In this document: piece by piece, positions 5,875 to 20,049 of the stretch
Layout: every line of letters starts with the position of its first letter
Numbering within the stretch: the first letter of the stretch is position 1
IMG/VR virus record: IMGVR_UViG_3300018080_000296
Span: 1 to 41,420 of that record
Direction: 5' to 3' (one strand)
DNA length: 41,420 nucleotides
From: a virus
Position numbers and translations under genes: made by a program
The notes under the pieces: model-generated
The model's database searches: none
Told to the model about the DNA's origin: nothing
What the model saw: the letters and a program-made list of their open reading frames with translations, nothing else

Positions 5875-6417
5875 ATGTCAAACCCCTTTGACTCGCCCCT
5901 CGACCCTTTCGACCCTTCCGGCTCTTCTGACTTCTCTTCTATCATTCAAGCCCTTATGTCAAGGCTCAACGAAGAGGACCGTTTCGTGTCTTACCTCAAC
6001 TCTTGTCCACGGGGAATCTCATCTTTAATGGCAGCAGCAGTTTTGGTAAATGGAAAAGAACTTGATAAAGAGTATGTTCAACCTACATGTGGAAACCCCC
6101 TTTCCCAAGTCCCCTCTATCATCGGGCCAAAGCTCTTATCTCAACTCCGCCTGATGCAAACCTGGGACGACGAACTTCTTAAGCAAGAAGTCCTCATCGC
6201 ATTCTGCCAGATCTGCATCTACTCCGCCCATGTTTTCGACGACACCACCCCATTCTTGGAAGTTACCCAAGGGGCGGAAGAACAGCTGGAAGGGAACAAC
6301 CCCGACACCATCTACCGCTTTGCTCTCTCCACCGCCACCGCCATCTTGGAAAAGGCCCAAGCCCTGGGTTGGTACCCTGATCGCAATAACGCCGGAGCGT
6401 TTCCGGCAAACTCGTAG
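5875..6417 (+). CDS. unknown early protein
   Basis: 180 residues, not recognised. A clear AAAGGAA ribosome-binding site precedes the ATG. The N-terminal 20 residues are Pro/Asp/Ser-rich and likely disordered; residues about 22-160 look helical with scattered Cys (about 45, 72, 113 and 116), which do not form a clean zinc motif. The C-terminus (TAILEKAQALGWYPDRN) is an amphipathic helix with a short tail. No membrane segment is seen. It begins the chain of accessory genes up to 9.7 kb. Just after its stop lies a 30-base element found again after the pentapeptide-type gene. Confidence 0.7.
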   Translation: MSNPFDSPLDPFDPSGSSDFSSIIQALMSRLNEEDRFVSYLNSCPRGISSLMAAAVLVNGKELDKEYVQPTCGNPLSQVPSIIGPKLLSQLRLMQTWDDELLKQEVLIAFCQICIYSAHVFDDTTPFLEVTQGAEEQLEGNNPDTIYRFALSTATAILEKAQALGWYPDRNNAGAFPANS

Positions 6418-6447
6418 CAATAGAGCAATGGCACAAGCATAGAAAGG
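6418..6447 (+). repeat. 30-base intergenic element, copy 1
   Basis: It ends in GGCACAAGCATAGAAAGG and matches 8159-8188 at 26 of 30 positions. In both places it follows the stop of an unrelated gene and supplies the AGAAAGG ribosome-binding site for the next start. Confidence 0.7.
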
Positions 6448-6454
6448 TTTAAGA

Positions 6455-7069
6455 ATGAACGCTAAGGATATCAAGATTGGAATAGAAGTTGCTGTTCCAG
6501 TCAATAGTGGTAGCTATCAATACCGCGTCGGCCGTGTTGCACGAATCGCTGACTCGAAGGTCAAACTCGTCGGCAGCGTCTTCGAGTGGCCTGCTTCCGA
6601 CTGCTGTCCTGTCACCCCACCCCCGCCGGAAGAAACTCTCCAATTCCTCGGCATCCAGGAACTCGGTCCACTGGTGGACGTCCGCCACATTCCCGCCTAC
6701 ATGCAGTGGGTAACAGATATTTCCATGCTGATGAAAGGGCCATGGAAACAGCCCCATGCAAATCCCACCCTCCGGTGGAGCATCGGCCGCTCCAACGAGC
6801 CGACATACAAGTTGGGTGACTGGTTCATGGACAAAACATTAGGCGTTTGCCTGACCTTCACAGCCAAAAACACCCTTAATTTGGTGTATCTTCCAAAAGG
6901 TCGTATATGGAACGACGGCGTCCATCTCGGAATTGGAGAAAGCACTATGTTCACACTCGACGAACTTCGTACCCTCTTTGACATTCCTGACCTCCGCCCT
7001 GCCATTAAGGCTGAAGTCCAAGATATATTCGCTGAGATTATCTGCGACAGGTTTGGGGATGAAGAATGA
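6455..7069 (+). CDS. IKxGxEVAVPVN-family protein A
   Basis: 204 residues. The N-terminal 45 residues (IKIGIEVAVPVN, then QYRVGRVARI, then VKLV) look like a small SH3/KOW-type beta barrel: a charged turn, a V-G-x-V strand pair and a final VKLV strand. The middle holds Pro-rich PPPPEE and a WSI-GR segment (about 108-112); the C-terminus is helical and ends in GDEE. A paralogue at 8299-8919 aligns end to end, strongest in the first 48 residues, in LGIxELGPLVD and in LRPAxKAEVQ. A third, shorter relative lies at 7232. The function is unknown; an RNA-, DNA- or protein-binding adaptor is inferred. The stop overlaps the next micro-ORF start in ATGA. Confidence 0.75.
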   Translation: MNAKDIKIGIEVAVPVNSGSYQYRVGRVARIADSKVKLVGSVFEWPASDCCPVTPPPPEETLQFLGIQELGPLVDVRHIPAYMQWVTDISMLMKGPWKQPHANPTLRWSIGRSNEPTYKLGDWFMDKTLGVCLTFTAKNTLNLVYLPKGRIWNDGVHLGIGESTMFTLDELRTLFDIPDLRPAIKAEVQDIFAEIICDRFGDEE

Positions 7070-7242
7070 CTTCGACAAAGCTCTATTTGGTATGTAAAGC
7101 GAAGTGCATGGCTATTTTGTGTCCCTTTTACAGCCGGTTTGTAAAAGCCTGTGGGTCCTCTTGCGACGGTGCGTGGAACGCATGTCTGACGTGTGGATGT
7201 TTCCAGCCAAACGAGCGAAAGGCAGTGAAGAATGAACATTAA
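7066..7242 (+). CDS. 58-residue Cys-rich micro-protein
   Basis: This frame starts in the ATGA overlap with the stop of the preceding gene and ends 11 bases inside the next gene, exactly filling the gap. It contains eight Cys: C10-x3-C14, C19, C29-x3-C33, then C40-x2-C43-x-C45. That spacing suggests one or two zinc sites or a disulphide-rich fold. There is one hydrophobic stretch (MAILCPFYSRF) but no clear signal peptide. The last residues KNEH arise from the overlap with the start of the next gene, as in the micro-ORF before 8299. Coupling on both sides is the main reason to accept it as a gene. Confidence 0.6.
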   Translation: MTSTKLYLVCKAKCMAILCPFYSRFVKACGSSCDGAWNACLTCGCFQPNERKAVKNEH

Positions 7243-7750
7243 AGAACTAAGAATCGGTCAACATGTCGCAGCTGAGATTGGCGCCAGATGGGCGGAAAGC
7301 AAAATCATCTCCCTAAGCGAGCACAGTGGAGTATGGCTCGTGTCTGAAACAGCAATGGGTTCATTCCTTCTCTTTCCTAACGACATATCTCCCCTGCCTA
7401 GCCGCCCGACAAAAGACAGATTAACAGCCTTAGCCTATGCAATGGGTTGGGATGGAGCGAAGATTGTTGGCCTGATCGACGTAAGCAAAGCCAAAGACGA
7501 CGATTTCTGGTACTCCAATGCTGGTGGAATAACACATGGACCAATAAAGCCAGTTCTCGGCCGTGCTATCCGCTGGCAGGTCAAGCCGATCAAGATTGAG
7601 CCTCCTACCATCACCGACGCCGATCGGGATGAGGCGATTCGGTTGGCATTGGATCATCTCTTGTATTCAATGTCGCCTTCGTCAAAGGGGGTAGACAAGG
7701 TAGCGGCTCTCCGCGATAAGTTCGCGGCGGCGAAAGGCGGTGCAGCATGA
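7232..7750 (+). CDS. IKxGxEVAVPVN-related protein B
   Basis: 172 residues. The start MNIKELRIGQHVAAEIGARW resembles the N-termini of its neighbours at 6455 and 8299, again followed by strand-like segments (SKIISLSEHSGVWLV), so a shared SH3/KOW-like barrel is inferred for residues 1-50. After that the sequence is unrelated to them: a Gly/Trp-containing middle and a helical C-terminal 50 residues (ITDADRDEAIRLALDHLLY, then KVAALRDKFAAAKGG). The helical end is like those of small phage regulators. Ribosome-binding GAAAGGCAG lies upstream inside the Cys-rich micro-ORF. The stop overlaps the next start by 4 bases. Confidence 0.7.
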   Translation: MNIKELRIGQHVAAEIGARWAESKIISLSEHSGVWLVSETAMGSFLLFPNDISPLPSRPTKDRLTALAYAMGWDGAKIVGLIDVSKAKDDDFWYSNAGGITHGPIKPVLGRAIRWQVKPIKIEPPTITDADRDEAIRLALDHLLYSMSPSSKGVDKVAALRDKFAAAKGGAA

Positions 7751-8169
7751 CCCTAAAAGACCTGCAAGCCATCCTTGCTGACCATACCAAGTGGCTGTGT
7801 GGCAAAGGAGGCAAAGAGGCCAACCTGTACTGGGCCAACCTGAGCGGCACATGCTTAGACCCCGACAACGCCCCGAACGGGGATGTTGAGGGGTTCGCTC
7901 ACCACGGCGAGTTTGTCATCGGCTACCGCACTCGCCAGGCCGGTCATATTGACAAGTACCGCGACGGACGAGTCTACTCGGCTGACTGGTTCTCCACGTC
8001 CGACACGGAGTGTCATCCCGGCCTGTATCTGTGGCCGACGCTGGATGATGCTATCGCGTGGCAGAAAGATGCCGAGATCATCCGAGTCAGGACAAAGCCG
8101 GCTGATGTCCACCGAGCCGGCAGCAAGTGGCGTTGCCGGTGGTTCGAGGTACTCGGGGCAATTGAGTAA
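7747..8169 (+). CDS. pentapeptide-type N-terminus with C-terminal domain
   Basis: 140 residues. Residues 4-24 (LKDLQAILADHTKWLCGKGG) and the following ANLYWANLSGT match the usual beginning of phage pentapeptide-repeat proteins, but only about two A(N/D)Lxx units remain before a Pro/Asn linker. Residues about 55-100 (IGYRTRQAGHI, VYSADWFSTS, HPGLYLWP) are the conserved module that often follows pentapeptide repeats in phage proteins. It is therefore a shortened version of that architecture. Its biochemical role is unknown; such proteins are common in accessory regions of phages. The start overlaps the previous stop in ATGA. Confidence 0.7.
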   Translation: MTLKDLQAILADHTKWLCGKGGKEANLYWANLSGTCLDPDNAPNGDVEGFAHHGEFVIGYRTRQAGHIDKYRDGRVYSADWFSTSDTECHPGLYLWPTLDDAIAWQKDAEIIRVRTKPADVHRAGSKWRCRWFEVLGAIE

Positions 8170-8188
8170 CGGCGCAAGCATAGAAAGG
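8159..8188 (+). repeat. 30-base intergenic element, copy 2
   Basis: It matches 6418-6447 at 26 of 30 positions, but here its first bases include the stop codon of the pentapeptide-type gene. It carries the AGAAAGG site used by the 36-codon micro-ORF. Confidence 0.7.
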
Positions 8189-8198
8189 AAGATTCACT

Positions 8199-8309
8199 AT
8201 GATCCCCGCCAACACCGCTGGAGAAGCCCAGAGGAATCACATGGCCGAGTGTAACAGAGTAGCGAATATGACAAGCCAGACAAAGGAAGGAGCAAGTAAT
8301 GAACATTAA
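8199..8309 (+). CDS. 36-residue micro-protein
   Basis: ATG with AGAAAGGAAG at good spacing; 36 codons. It is polar and Asn/Ala/Gln/Thr-rich (starts MIPANTAGEAQRNHMAE), with one Cys and no membrane segment. It ends in SNEH by overlapping the first 11 bases of the next gene, the same overlap arrangement as the Cys-rich micro-ORF at 7066. It may act mainly as a translational coupler or leader for protein C. Confidence 0.5.
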   Translation: MIPANTAGEAQRNHMAECNRVANMTSQTKEGASNEH

Positions 8310-8919
8310 AGAAATCAAGATCGGAATGGAAGTCGCTGTTCCAGTCAACGAAGGCAGCTGGCAGTACCGCGTCGGCCGCGTTGCAAGATTCTCTAATTAT
8401 TCGGTCAAGCTCGTGAACTGTGTCACTGAATGGCCCGCCATTAATTGCCAACCAGTTCCCCCACTCCCCTCGGAAGAAACTCTCCAAGCTCTCGGCATCG
8501 AAGAACTAGGTCCGTTGGTAGATATTCGCAGGATTTCCCCTAAAGTAAAGTGGATATCTATTGTGGGTACGATCAAAGAAGGTGCTGATAGCGGGTTTGA
8601 ACACCACCTTATCCTCCGTTGGAGCATCGCCCGCATCCACGAACCCGAGCCGAAGTATGGCTTGGGCGACTGGTTCGTGAACACAGCGAACGACGTCTGC
8701 TTCTTGACCTTCACGACCGAACACACCATCAACTTGATGTATCCCGTGTCAGGCCGCAGGTGGAACGATGGAGCAAGGCACGCAACTCACAAGTTCTCTC
8801 TTACTCTCCCCGAACTCCGTACCCTCTTACGTGTCCCCGGCCTCCGCCCTGCCACCAAGGCCGAAGTCCAGGAAGCGTTCGCCAGGATTCTCCACGACAA
8901 GTTTGGAGATGAAGAATGA
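8299..8919 (+). CDS. IKxGxEVAVPVN-family protein C
   Basis: 206 residues, paralogue of protein A. The N-terminal barrel-like part reads IKIGMEVAVPVN, QYRVGRVARF, VKLV. Shared later blocks are EETLQALGIEELGPLVD, the LRWSIAR segment, LGDWF, and the C-terminal LRPATKAEVQ with the ending KFGDEE. Compared with A it carries a few extra residues in the middle, and both end in the same acidic tail. Nucleotide identity remains visible in the first 140 bases, so the duplication is not ancient. The function is unknown. A ribosome-binding AAGGAGC lies 7 bases upstream, within the 36-codon micro-ORF; the stop overlaps the next start in ATGA. Confidence 0.75.
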   Translation: MNIKEIKIGMEVAVPVNEGSWQYRVGRVARFSNYSVKLVNCVTEWPAINCQPVPPLPSEETLQALGIEELGPLVDIRRISPKVKWISIVGTIKEGADSGFEHHLILRWSIARIHEPEPKYGLGDWFVNTANDVCFLTFTTEHTINLMYPVSGRRWNDGARHATHKFSLTLPELRTLLRVPGLRPATKAEVQEAFARILHDKFGDEE

Positions 8920-9149
8920 CTCCCTCCGAGATCGAATACCATCTCCGCGAACTCCACGAGATCGACGTTGACAACCTCAAGGCCGGCCGGATCACTCGGC
9001 AGGCTATGAAAGAGGCGATGGATCGGGTGCAGGCGTACATGGGGCTGATGTACGCCAACAGGCTACGTGAAGGGAAAGCGGCATACCCTCGACACCTGGC
9101 CGACGAACTGAACAACATGCTGCAAGCCGCGAGAGAGGATGGTGAATGA
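8916..9149 (+). CDS. small helical protein
   Basis: 77 residues, not recognised. It is entirely helical in appearance: a first amphipathic helix (SEIEYHLRELHEIDVDNLKA), then a basic helix (TRQAMKEAMDRVQAYMGLM) and a last helix (HLADELNNMLQAAREDGE). No Cys or membrane segment is present. It overlaps both neighbours by 4 bases (ATGA), placing it in a coupled string. It may be a small DNA-binding or adaptor protein. Confidence 0.7.
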   Translation: MTPSEIEYHLRELHEIDVDNLKAGRITRQAMKEAMDRVQAYMGLMYANRLREGKAAYPRHLADELNNMLQAAREDGE

Positions 9150-9418
9150 TGGGATGCCGAGCGTTCAATAACAAGCATCAGCGAGACTGGCAAAAACCAC
9201 GCGACGAAGCTCTTCAGCCGTCGTGCAAGGTGTGTGGCATGATGGAAGTCACGAAGCCAGACGGCAGCTATCGTTCGGACATTCCACAGTGCCCAGGTTG
9301 CGGGCGTCCCCTTGTTGTGCTCTGCCCAGATTGCGGCGGCATGGGAGGTCGGACCGTGCCAGGCCATGACAACTACTACGGTCCAGCCGGGCACCGGTGG
9401 GAAGAGTGCCAGAAGTGA
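9146..9418 (+). CDS. zinc-ribbon protein
   Basis: 90 residues. Three CxxC knuckles are visible: C27-x2-C30, C49-x2-C52 and C60-x2-C63, the last in the glycine-rich CPDCGGMGG that resembles DnaJ-type zinc-finger repeats. The C-terminus contains HRWEEC. It is thus a metal-binding protein able to hold one or two zinc ions, perhaps for RNA or protein contact. Its start overlaps the preceding stop (ATGATG), and a GTGA overlap couples it to a 26-codon frame downstream. Confidence 0.65.
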   Translation: MMGCRAFNNKHQRDWQKPRDEALQPSCKVCGMMEVTKPDGSYRSDIPQCPGCGRPLVVLCPDCGGMGGRTVPGHDNYYGPAGHRWEECQK

Positions 9419-9495: not shown

Positions 9496-9668
9496 GTGAC
9501 CACCCCACCAACATTCGAGCCCGTGTGTTCGACCAGTGCGACGATTGCGGCACTATCGCCATGTGTTATCTTGTCGGGGACGACACGCTGCTGTGCCCAG
9601 ATTGCTACGCGGACATGATGGGTAACGATGATATGTACTACGACTACGACGACAAACAGGACGTGTAG
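9492..9668 (+). CDS. 58-residue zinc-ribbon protein with acidic tail
   Basis: MSDHPTNIRARVFDQC begins a short protein with the knuckles CDDC and CPDC separated by 16 residues, a canonical zinc-ribbon spacing, preceded by a basic strand. The end is very acidic and Tyr/Asp-rich (DMYYDYDDKQDV). The frame remains open upstream, but the start in the ATGA overlap is preferred because the upstream part lies within the previous zinc-ribbon gene. Small zinc ribbons with acidic tails can bind RNA polymerase or other host proteins; that is inference. Confidence 0.65.
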   Translation: MSDHPTNIRARVFDQCDDCGTIAMCYLVGDDTLLCPDCYADMMGNDDMYYDYDDKQDV

Positions 9669-15256: not shown

Positions 15257-16624
15257 ATGAAAGTTTTCAACGTATCTATCCAAGAGTTAGAAGTTGTAGA
15301 TAGAGGAAGAAAAGAGTTTAAGAATATCTCCGAACTCTCTGACTCTATCAAAAAGCATGGGCTTATTCATCCCATTGTAGTTACACCCCTAGAAGAGGAA
15401 GATAAGCCCTCACGAGAAGGTGTTAAGTTTCGACTTGTAGCTGGAGAGAGAAGGTTTCGGGCCATGTGTCTCCTTGCCTGGAAAGAGTTTCCTGCAATCC
15501 TTCTCCAAGAATGTTCTCCCCTTCAGAGAAAAGAGATTGAACTTGAGGAGAACATTCAGAGAAGTAATCTCGAGTGGCAAGAAGAAGCTGAGATGTTTGC
15601 TCAGATTCATGAGCTCAAACAAAAGATCTACGGCCCAGCTCTAGGTAAGTCTGATGAAACTGATGATTCAGAAAAGCCAGAAGGTTGGGGAGTTAAAGAT
15701 ACTGCTGAATTAACAAATACATCCTCTGGTGCTGTATCTAAGAAGATTAAACTTGCTAAGAAGCTTCGCGAAAGACCGGAACTGAAAAAGCGGGTTAAGA
15801 ATCTTCCAGCCTCTGCCGCGATGAGAGAGATTGAAAGAATTGAAAAAGCAGAGAGACTGGAGAGATTACACAAAGATTCAAAGTCTAGTTTCTCGACTAA
15901 ACTTCTTCATGGCTCTTGCCTCGACCTGATTAAGGATGTCAAGTCAGAATCCATCGACTTAGTCCTTACCGACCCACCCTATGGAGCTACGTATATCGAC
16001 AAGGAGCATAAGAAAGATACAAAGAGAAAAGACAACTCTCTTTTTGGAACTCTTACGGATCAAGACAACCTCACAGCTCCAAAGGTTGCATCTCTTTTCG
16101 AGGCTCTCTCTCCTGAGTTGTTTAGAGTTATGAAAACAGGATCTCACTTCTATATCTTCTTCGCTCTTGAATGTTTTCACTCTATCTCCTCAAGCCTTCA
16201 AGATTCTGGCTTTATCACAAGTACCGTTCCCCTTGTTTGGGACAAGGGAAGATCTACTTCTTCTTTCAAGGGTTATAAGTATCAAGGCTCACATGAGTTA
16301 ATTCTCTTCGGCCACAAACCGCCAAATCCCAGACGTCTTGCCAAGGGAAGTCGAGATGTCTTGAGTTTCAAACCACAGAGTGGAAAGGTCAAACTCCACC
16401 CCTTTGAAAAGCCTTTAGACTTACTTGATTTCCTTATCGTTCAGAGTACATTTTTGGGACAAAAAGTTCTTGATCCCTTCGCCGGTTCAGCCTCTACCCT
16501 CAAGGCAGCAGCAGCATGTGGTCGAGTAGGTCTAGGCTTTGAGTTAAATGAATCTAGATACAAAGTTGCGTCAACTTCTCTTATCTCAGAACTTTCCAAG
16601 GAGAAGAGCGATGAATCTGAATGA
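15257..16624 (+). CDS. ParB-like domain fused to DNA methyltransferase
   Basis: 455 residues. The first 120 form a ParB/Spo0J-type domain: ELSDSIKKHGLIHPIVV, LVAGERRFRA and ELEENIQRSNL. Residues about 140-200 contain an HTH (TSSGAVSKKIKLAKKL). The C-terminal half is an N6-adenine or N4-cytosine methyltransferase of the beta order: DPPYG (239-243), a target-binding middle and the AdoMet site DPFAGSAS (406-413) followed by GLGFELNESRY. No restriction enzyme partner is present. The fusion would let a sequence-reading ParB part direct methylation, perhaps to protect phage DNA. A ribosome-binding CAGGAG lies before the ATG. Confidence 0.85.
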   Translation: MKVFNVSIQELEVVDRGRKEFKNISELSDSIKKHGLIHPIVVTPLEEEDKPSREGVKFRLVAGERRFRAMCLLAWKEFPAILLQECSPLQRKEIELEENIQRSNLEWQEEAEMFAQIHELKQKIYGPALGKSDETDDSEKPEGWGVKDTAELTNTSSGAVSKKIKLAKKLRERPELKKRVKNLPASAAMREIERIEKAERLERLHKDSKSSFSTKLLHGSCLDLIKDVKSESIDLVLTDPPYGATYIDKEHKKDTKRKDNSLFGTLTDQDNLTAPKVASLFEALSPELFRVMKTGSHFYIFFALECFHSISSSLQDSGFITSTVPLVWDKGRSTSSFKGYKYQGSHELILFGHKPPNPRRLAKGSRDVLSFKPQSGKVKLHPFEKPLDLLDFLIVQSTFLGQKVLDPFAGSASTLKAAAACGRVGLGFELNESRYKVASTSLISELSKEKSDESE

Positions 16625-16823: not shown

Positions 16824-17654
16824 ATGTCTACATCTTGGGATGCTGTTCCCATGCTTGCTAAGAAGTATGATCCGAAAAAGACTAAAACCAAGTTTCCCCT
16901 CTTAGTCCAACCTAAACTTGATGGTGTTAGAGTCTGTTGGAATGGAAATCGAGCATATTCACGAACAGGCAAACCATTAAATATCGGCGGCCAGCTTTTA
17001 CGAAACTTAGAGACAGCAGCTAGGGGTATTCCCCTCGATGGAGAACTCTATGCTCACGACGCAACCTTTGAACAGATTTCCGGTGGGGCAAGAAGGCTTG
17101 TAGCAAAGACTCATGAAGTTCCGCTGACTTTCGTCGTCTTTGACCTTCCTGGCACCGCCTCTTGTGGAGATAGATTGCGGCATCTCAAATCTCTTGGCTT
17201 CAATCCCTTTGACGAAATCAAAGACTACAACCCTGGTGAGATCCTAACCCTTGAACACTCCTGGCTTTTCTCAGTAAGTGAAATTGAATCTCAACTCCAG
17301 ACTTATATCTCCAGAGGTTTTGAAGGCATGATTCTTCGAAACCCAGATGCTCCGTACTTGGGTAAGCGAACTCCTTATCTACTCAAGTATAAAAGATTCA
17401 TCGAAGAAGAAGCTACGGTTGTAGGGCTAATTCCTGGAAAAGGTAAGCATGAAGGACGCCTTGGAGCGCTTAGGGTGAGGGGAGTCTCTTGGGTCTGCAA
17501 TGTCGGAACTGGTTTTAGTGACGAAGAAAGAGAACGGTTTTGGGACAGTCCTGAGTGTATTATGAAGAAACTCATAACAGTTTCCTACCAAGAAAAAACT
17601 GCTAACGGAACCCCACGGTTTCCTAGCTTCAAAGGAGTAAGAGATTATGAGTAG
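16824..17654 (+). CDS. ATP-dependent DNA ligase
   Basis: 276 residues, a minimal phage ligase. Motif I is QPKLDGVR with the adenylated K31. Motif III is LDGELY (71-76), motif IIIa/IIIb is FVVFDLPG (103-110), motif IV is EGMILR (167-172) and motif V is LLKYK (186-190). A C-terminal OB domain starts near 198 (ATVVGLIPGKGKHEGRLGAL). It seals nicks after DNA synthesis or recombination using ATP. No zinc finger or extra N-terminal domain is present, and it is shorter than the 359-residue T7 enzyme. It overlaps the polymerase start by 8 bases. Confidence 0.93.
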   Translation: MSTSWDAVPMLAKKYDPKKTKTKFPLLVQPKLDGVRVCWNGNRAYSRTGKPLNIGGQLLRNLETAARGIPLDGELYAHDATFEQISGGARRLVAKTHEVPLTFVVFDLPGTASCGDRLRHLKSLGFNPFDEIKDYNPGEILTLEHSWLFSVSEIESQLQTYISRGFEGMILRNPDAPYLGKRTPYLLKYKRFIEEEATVVGLIPGKGKHEGRLGALRVRGVSWVCNVGTGFSDEERERFWDSPECIMKKLITVSYQEKTANGTPRFPSFKGVRDYE

Positions 17655-20049
17655 TCTCGGCTTTCCAGTCTCTAAACCTAAGTTTTCCGATAGATTCATC
17701 CCAGGAATTGGTCCTAAAGATGCTAAGATTGCTATTGTTGGAGAAGCTCCGGGAAAGGAAGAAGATAGTGTCGGAGAGCCTTTTGTAGGATCATCTGGAA
17801 AACTTCTTAAAGACATGCTTCTGAGAGTAGGGATTAACTTTAATAATTGCTATGTTACAAACGTAGTAAAATATCGTCCCCAAAGCAACAACTTTGCTCT
17901 ACTCTATAAAGATGCTAAGAAGACGAAACCTAATGACTACCTACAGCTGTGGCAAAATGCCCTAATCAAGGAACTCAGAGAGATCTCTCCAAATATCATC
18001 ATCGCTCTTGGCAACGAGCCACTTCAAGCTTTGACAGGAAAGAAAGGCATAACTAAATGGAGAGGGTCTATTGTCTCCAGCCCTGCGGGGAAAACCATTG
18101 GGACATACCACCCTGCTATGATTCTCCGCAAATATGAATACCGAAGTATCTCAGAACATGATCTAAAGAGAGCTCTAGAAGAAAGTACGTCACCTACTCT
18201 AGACTTGCCTTCTGTTGACTGTATTGTTGAACCTAGCTTTGCCGAAGCTATGGATTATCTCAGAACTAAACACAGTCGACTCTCTTTTGACTATGAAACT
18301 TCAGGCTCTCTCGCCAGAGTTATTGGCCTCGCGGCGTCGAGCCGACAGGCTATATGTATACCTTTTATGTCTTCTGGAGTCCGAGAAGGTTCTAAGGTCA
18401 TCTCTCTAGAAGATTCCATTACCGCAAACAATTATTGGACAGAGGAAGAAGAAAGAAGCATCTTGGATGAGATCTTCCGTCTGATGACAAGTGAAGAGGT
18501 TGAGAAAGTTGCACAAAACTTTCCCTTCGACTCGGTTATCCAAATGGTTAATTTTGGAATCCCTGTCAACAACCTCTGGATGGACACCATGGTGGCTCAA
18601 CATTGTTGCTATTCTGAGCTTCCTAAATCTCTAGACTTCCTTTGTTCATTCTACACCCGTGTTCCGCGGTATTCAGATTATGAACCCTCTAGTGATAGGT
18701 CTACATGGATCTATAACTGCCACGATGCTGCTGTAACCTTTGAAGTTGCCCTAGCTCTTGAGATGGAAATGAGAGACCTAGGAGTTGAGGACTTCTACCG
18801 TGAGGTTGCTCACCCTTGCATGCTTGCTCTCTGCCGGACAGGATATCGAGGAGTTAGTATAAATAAGGAAGCAGTCAAAAGAAGGAAGAAGATTGCAGAA
18901 GAATCCAAGTCTAAAGCTCTCAAAAGCTTAGAATCTTCTGTCGGACGGCCTGTTAATCCTAACTCTCCAAAACAGGTTAAAGAACTTCTGTTTCGAGACT
19001 TGGCCCTTCCACCGCAGATTTCTAGAAAGACTGGAAAAGAGACTACTGATGCTGAGACGATAGAAAAGCTGATTCTCAAACACCCAGATTTTAAGAAGTT
19101 TCTCCAGCCTATTCTTGACTACCGAGATGCAGTAAAGACACTAAGTTTTCTTGAAATGAAACTTGACAGTCGGGGAAAGATGGTAACTTCCTTCAACGCA
19201 ACTGGTACTAAAACTGGTAGGATTTCTAGTTCTAAGACAGCTCTTGGATTTGGATCTAATCTTCAGCAACAACCCCGTGGGGAGTTTAGAGAAATCTACG
19301 TTGCAGATTCTGGAAAAGTTCTAGTCAAAGCTGACTTATCTCAAGCTGAAATCCGGGTAGTTGCTGGAATTGCAGGGATTGAAGACCTGCTTAGAAACTT
19401 CAAGAATCCTGATTTTGACATCCACCGATGGAACGCTTCTCTTATCTTTAGTAAACCCATTGAAGAGATTTCTAAGAAAGAACGACAGCAGGCAAAACAT
19501 TGTCTCCACTCTGCTAACTACAAAGGCGGTCCTGGTACTGCCCAGAAACATGCAAAGGTTCCATATCGAGTTGCTAAGGTTGCTCTTGAGAAATATATTC
19601 GAGCAATCCCAGACCTGTCCCGCTGGTGGGAAGAGACAGAAGATAAGATTAGAAGCACTAGAAAACTCACCACTCCTTATGGGAGATTAAGGGTTTTTCT
19701 CGGCCGTATGGATCAAACGACATTCCGCTCAGGGATTGCACAAGTTCCTCAGTCAACAGTAGGAGACCACATCAACATTTGTCTCTCAATTCTTGACTCT
19801 GACCTTCCTAAAATCGATCCCGATGCTTTTCCGATCCTGCAGGTTCACGATGAAATTGTCTGTGAAGTCCCTAACAACCCAGAGGTAATTCGCGCTTGTG
19901 GGAATAAGATAAAAGAGACTCTAGAATCTCCAATCTCAATTGAAGATAGAGAGATTATCATCCCCACCGAAGTCCTGGTTGGTAAGTCTTGGGCACCGTC
20001 TAGTCTTATTCCCCTTGAAACCTATATCGAAAGAAACTTTAATGGCTAG
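17647..20049 (+). CDS. uracil-DNA-glycosylase/family A DNA polymerase fusion
   Basis: 800 residues, the replicative polymerase. Residues about 1-175 are a family 4 uracil-DNA-glycosylase-like domain: GEAPGKEED (32-40), PFVGSSGKLL, TNVVKYRP (N72) and TYHPAMILR (H155). Its usual Fe-S Cys are absent; at the place of KCRP stands KYRP. Residues about 190-400 are a 3'-5' exonuclease: FDYETSG (D215, E217), QNFPFD and YNCHD. The polymerase follows: motif A DLSQAEIR (D563), motif B R613-x3-K617-x3-H621-x3-Y625 and motif C HDE (734-736). H621 stands where E. coli has F762. SPO1-type polymerases carry a comparable N-terminal domain. Confidence 0.93.
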   Translation: MSSLGFPVSKPKFSDRFIPGIGPKDAKIAIVGEAPGKEEDSVGEPFVGSSGKLLKDMLLRVGINFNNCYVTNVVKYRPQSNNFALLYKDAKKTKPNDYLQLWQNALIKELREISPNIIIALGNEPLQALTGKKGITKWRGSIVSSPAGKTIGTYHPAMILRKYEYRSISEHDLKRALEESTSPTLDLPSVDCIVEPSFAEAMDYLRTKHSRLSFDYETSGSLARVIGLAASSRQAICIPFMSSGVREGSKVISLEDSITANNYWTEEEERSILDEIFRLMTSEEVEKVAQNFPFDSVIQMVNFGIPVNNLWMDTMVAQHCCYSELPKSLDFLCSFYTRVPRYSDYEPSSDRSTWIYNCHDAAVTFEVALALEMEMRDLGVEDFYREVAHPCMLALCRTGYRGVSINKEAVKRRKKIAEESKSKALKSLESSVGRPVNPNSPKQVKELLFRDLALPPQISRKTGKETTDAETIEKLILKHPDFKKFLQPILDYRDAVKTLSFLEMKLDSRGKMVTSFNATGTKTGRISSSKTALGFGSNLQQQPRGEFREIYVADSGKVLVKADLSQAEIRVVAGIAGIEDLLRNFKNPDFDIHRWNASLIFSKPIEEISKKERQQAKHCLHSANYKGGPGTAQKHAKVPYRVAKVALEKYIRAIPDLSRWWEETEDKIRSTRKLTTPYGRLRVFLGRMDQTTFRSGIAQVPQSTVGDHINICLSILDSDLPKIDPDAFPILQVHDEIVCEVPNNPEVIRACGNKIKETLESPISIEDREIIIPTEVLVGKSWAPSSLIPLETYIERNFNG

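Follow-up and report, generated by a model that had tools for sequence, protein, structure and literature searches.

A short, cysteine-rich open reading frame fills the space between two genes of a tailed phage, and the question is whether it encodes a protein or was merely left open by the sequences on either side of it. The frame lies in IMG/VR virus record IMGVR_UViG_3300018080_000296, all 41,420 bases of which were analysed here as the window. The tailed-phage gene set of this window includes an SU10/P22-like portal, a family A DNA polymerase, an ATP-dependent ligase, a ParB-methylase fusion and a sigma-like factor. The polymerase occupies 17647-20049 and carries a uracil-DNA glycosylase domain at its N-terminus; the fusion at 15257-16624 joins an N6/N4 DNA methylase to a ParB-N domain. 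The Cys-rich frame itself sits within a rightward gene island at approximately 4.5-10 kb, where the G+C content is around 52-53%, compared with 40-47% across most of the remaining window. Two adjacent small frames of the island (9146-9418 and 9498-9668) carry CxxC elements and have a 17-base repeat in common (TGCTCTGCCCAGATTGC / TGCTGTGCCCAGATTGC); their zinc-ribbon-like Pfam scores are weak and fall under the curated cut-offs. Our preferred reading, which we hold at about even confidence, is that the Cys-rich frame is an orphan, lineage-specific small gene of an early-gene island, probably translationally coupled and possibly metal-binding. The features on which the argument turns are collected in Table 1.

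Table 1. Frames, genes and junctions around the Cys-rich frame.
Feature	Positions	Strand	Description
Cys-rich frame	7066-7242	+	58 aa; starts at the ATGA formed with the end of A; TAA ends 11 bases inside B
Protein A	6455-7069	+	204 aa, no family; C-terminus ...FGDEE, end DNA GATGAAGAATGA
Protein B	7232-7750	+	172 aa; gene start ATGAACATTAAAGAA
Protein A'	8299-8919	+	Paralogue of A, 56% identical; followed by ATGA-coupled 77-aa gene at 8916
36-aa frame	8199-8309	+	Terminates in ...SNEH and stop, 11 bases inside A'
A junction	7052-7069	+	TTTGGGGATGAAGAATGA: weak Shine-Dalgarno-like GGGGA, ATGA stop/start overlap
B leader and start	7215-7248	+	Ribosome-site-like GAAAGG, ATGAACATTAAAGAACT
Rival frame	7104-7235	+	43 aa, GTG start, no clear ribosome site; ATGA overlap with B

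The translation of 7066-7242 is MTSTKLYLVCKAKCMAILCPFYSRFVKACGSSCDGAWNACLTCGCFQPNERKAVKNEH, followed by the stop codon. It agrees with the description given in an earlier note on this DNA, namely 58 residues with eight cysteines (at 10, 14, 19, 29, 33, 40, 43 and 45) in CxxxC spacing twice and CxxCxC once; the full spacing is C-x3-C-x4-C-x9-C-x3-C-x6-C-x2-C-x-C. Both ends also lie where they had been placed, as the TGA of A closes the ATGA at 7066-7069 and the TAA at 7240-7242 falls 11 bases inside B, which starts at 7232. If the frame is left out, the gap between A and B is 162 bases. The accompanying remark that a frame of this size would be missed by the usual gene cut-offs is doubtful, because its 177 bases exceed the Prodigal minimum. 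That minimum is 90 bases, with short genes penalised.

The earlier note had further argued that random frames rarely fit a gap exactly. This argument does not hold at this locus, since both ends of the frame are set by duplicated gene edges. A and A' share the identical end GATGAAGAATGA, which yields an ATGA overlap regardless of the downstream sequence. B and A' share the start ATGAACATTAA, in which a TAA 11 bases in stops any frame arriving in that register, and the 36-aa frame and the Cys-rich frame end identically, in NEH and stop, 11 bases into A' and B respectively. In local order-2 Markov DNA with a fixed ATG, 54 or more codons stayed open in 17% of simulations and the frame ended near the next start in 8%. 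The chance of an open, in-register frame given fixed ends is thus approximately 6% (~1/3 x 0.17), and with the ends supplied by duplicated edges the exact fit is weak evidence. The lesson for method is that duplicated edges, here an A-type end and a MNIKE-type start, can manufacture small gap-filling frames, so that an exact fit should not by itself be taken as evidence for a gene.

The relationship between these genes is also visible outside the shared edges. The N-terminus of B resembles that of A, and the motif MNxKxxxIGxxVA is common to A, A' and B. Sequences similar to the leader and start of B occur at 7730-7763 and 8282-8315. The Cys-rich frame takes its C-terminal tail from the bases of the B leader and start as far as 7239; this tail is thus the B leader read in a different frame, which counts against the frame as a gene. 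The A-type gene is duplicated together with its leader (6410-6447 vs 8151-8188, 84%, within the region 6410-8921), and the DNA identity of A and A' is ~71-82% in blocks. With B as a third N-terminal copy, A, A' and B form an expanding orphan family without a database match. The 36-aa frame carries a ribosome-site-like AAAGGAAG and precedes an A-type gene, as the Cys-rich frame does.

These edges raise the possibility that the gap is a spacer between duplicated genes, in which the Cys-rich frame has opened by chance and any peptide made by reinitiation is functionless. The start would then come from the A-family C-terminal codons GAT GAA GAA TGA and the stop from the MNIKE start of B. Such an origin agrees with the two duplicated edges, with the like ending of 8199-8309 inside A', with the ~6% expected for an open frame between them and with the lack of relatives described below. 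The codon score of the frame is likewise not gene-like (-0.035 per codon, vs 0.07 to 0.27 in local genes). At such length, synonymous codon scores fail to separate frames. What speaks against chance is that openness and Cys richness came together in only 0.11% of dinucleotide shuffles of the gap, the separate figures being 4.9% for an open frame and 1.4% for 8 or more Cys. In 20,000 order-2 Markov simulations, no open frame reached 8 Cys. The combination therefore exceeds what chance would give in the gap, at about 1 in 1000 shuffles, although the frame was picked post hoc, and we regard a functionless chance frame as rather unlikely.

The main positive sign for the Cys-rich frame is its in-phase TG codons. 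Nine of its codons begin with TG (eight TGY, one TGG and no TGA), while the other two frames of the gap have six and five, the next frame including three TGA. Among the 280 window frames of at least 40 aa, it ranks first in Cys richness. In ~270 kb of other phage DNA, 1130 frames were 45-100 aa long and 4 of them, 2 of these distinct, were as rich in Cys; all four look like shadow or low-complexity frames. The Cys content is thus uncommon for this frame, but such values do occur once a frame is selected from the whole window.

A second reading of the gap takes 7104-7235 as its true coding frame, and the Cys-rich frame as its shadow. It would be either a short GTG-start gene or the remnant tail of a gene in which a frame break near 7095 may have cut off a start at 7066. 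This frame meets B as well, through a 4-base ATGA overlap of the type usual in the operon, which further undercuts the exact fit claimed for its rival. At its end, the codons line up in phase with those that close B (AKGSEE vs AKGGAA, each followed by the stop), and its codon-position G+C (0.56/0.39/0.54) is similar to that of local genes. The values for the Cys-rich frame are 0.38/0.53/0.56, and its many TGY codons alone shift codon-position G+C away from the gene-like pattern. Periodic Markov frame models of order 3 favoured 7104-7235 (posterior 0.92-0.997), also when the shared tail was removed, but models of order 1 and order 2 made no choice or were mixed, with some for the Cys-rich frame. 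Moreover, the GTG is without a ribosome-site-like sequence, a stop codon lies just upstream of it, and no relatives of the frame were found. Frame statistics fail to decide between 7066-7242 and 7104-7235; taking all of this together, we think it distinctly unlikely that 7104-7235 is the coding frame of the gap.

Other candidates for the gap were set aside. A minus-strand frame of 180 aa (6697-7239) lies for the most part opposite A and was regarded as a shadow of that gene. No RNA element was indicated by an Rfam match or a tRNA, and folding was no better than that of shuffled sequence (z +1.35).

Searches for relatives of the 58-aa peptide in IMG/VR, phages, plasmids and GTDB found none, nor did those for A and B in IMG/VR and phages, for an alignment of A and A' in IMG/VR, or by blastn for the DNA around the Cys-rich frame in phages. 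This lack of relatives counts neither for nor against the frame as a gene. Pfam, PHROGs, NCBIfam and PADLOC gave no family for the peptide, and no profile match placed it with known zinc-ribbon or zinc-knuckle proteins. The 8-Cys spacing, searched as a DNA pattern in IMG/VR and GTDB, had been forecast to be near-unique, which proved wrong as repeats also match it; the matches listed were mostly low-complexity, Cys-repeat frames, and none of those listed had positive similarity outside the cysteines. A stricter 7-Cys pattern returned three matches, all unrelated Cys-repeat frames. Solved structures held no meaningful match to the peptide, and its single-sequence structure model was poor (pLDDT 53).

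The nearest kin phage found was L007 (IMGVR_UViG_3300033145_002303), which shares TerL (50%), capsid (40%) and portal (36%), as well as PolA in two pieces (52% and 43%). The PolA alignment starts at residue 16 and includes the glycosylase domain. From TerS to the region matching ~11 kb of the window, L007 has no detectable homologue of the island genes and carries other, non-homologous small frames, one of them with CxxC-like elements (L025:6610-6909). Since non-homologous genes stand at the same place in L007, the island appears to be one of fast turnover.

The case for translation of the Cys-rich frame comes from its junction with A, an overlapping stop and start within one operon. ATGA junctions also open genes at 7747, 8916 and 9146. 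The counterpart at A' is TTTGGAGATGAAGAATGA, ending at 8919, and the 77-aa gene that follows it is a credible one. Because the A junction resembles this A' junction, which appears to work, reinitiation at 7066 is plausible. The earlier proposal of a translated small protein is thus strengthened by the ATGA style of the operon and by the A' junction, but loses the support of the exact fit and has the codon statistics and the rival frame against it.

If the Cys-rich frame is the small coupled gene that we prefer to see in it, ribosomes finishing A at its TGA would restart on the overlapping ATG to make the peptide, and B would then be initiated mainly at its own GAAAGG site. The eight cysteines would, most likely, coordinate one or two zinc ions, giving a small folded protein; the small CxxC-rich frames at 9146-9418 and 9498-9668 in the same island provide supporting context. 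Both the translation and the metal binding are inferences. The folded peptide might act during takeover by binding a partner from the host or the phage, which is a guess from its position among early accessory genes. The most specific form of this account, an orphan early protein with a new 8-Cys metal-binding arrangement made by termination-reinitiation from A, strikes us as unlikely.

Small phage proteins of the zinc-knuckle or zinc-ribbon type with CxxC elements are known, Lar-like proteins being an example. The peptide is likewise small and Cys-rich and contains a CxxCG and a CPF element, but it is without a second CxxC pair and has CPFY where CPFC would be expected. A standard zinc ribbon or knuckle requires two CxxC (or CxxH) and was rejected, as the peptide has C40-C43 only; its remaining closely spaced cysteines form CxxxC and CxC pairs.

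Termination-reinitiation at overlapping stop and start codons has been found by experiment for gene pairs of E. coli and H. volcanii (PMC6728339). As in ATGA-type coupled pairs of that kind, an ATGA overlap is found here, preceded by a weak Shine-Dalgarno-like element within gene A, and the coupling is putative. Families of smORFs are backed by evidence of conservation or selection (PMC11188072), and the Cys-rich frame differs from them in that no family was found. It is nonetheless short, intergenic and lineage-specific, like the unannotated small genes collected in catalogues such as GMSC (PMC11364881) and the smORFs (PMC11188072), and intergenic smORFs typically turn over fast and lose detectable similarity to one another (PMC11188072). 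The Cys-rich frame is ordinary in kind, and its peptide, if made, would be one more orphan small protein of a class that is large in phage accessory regions.
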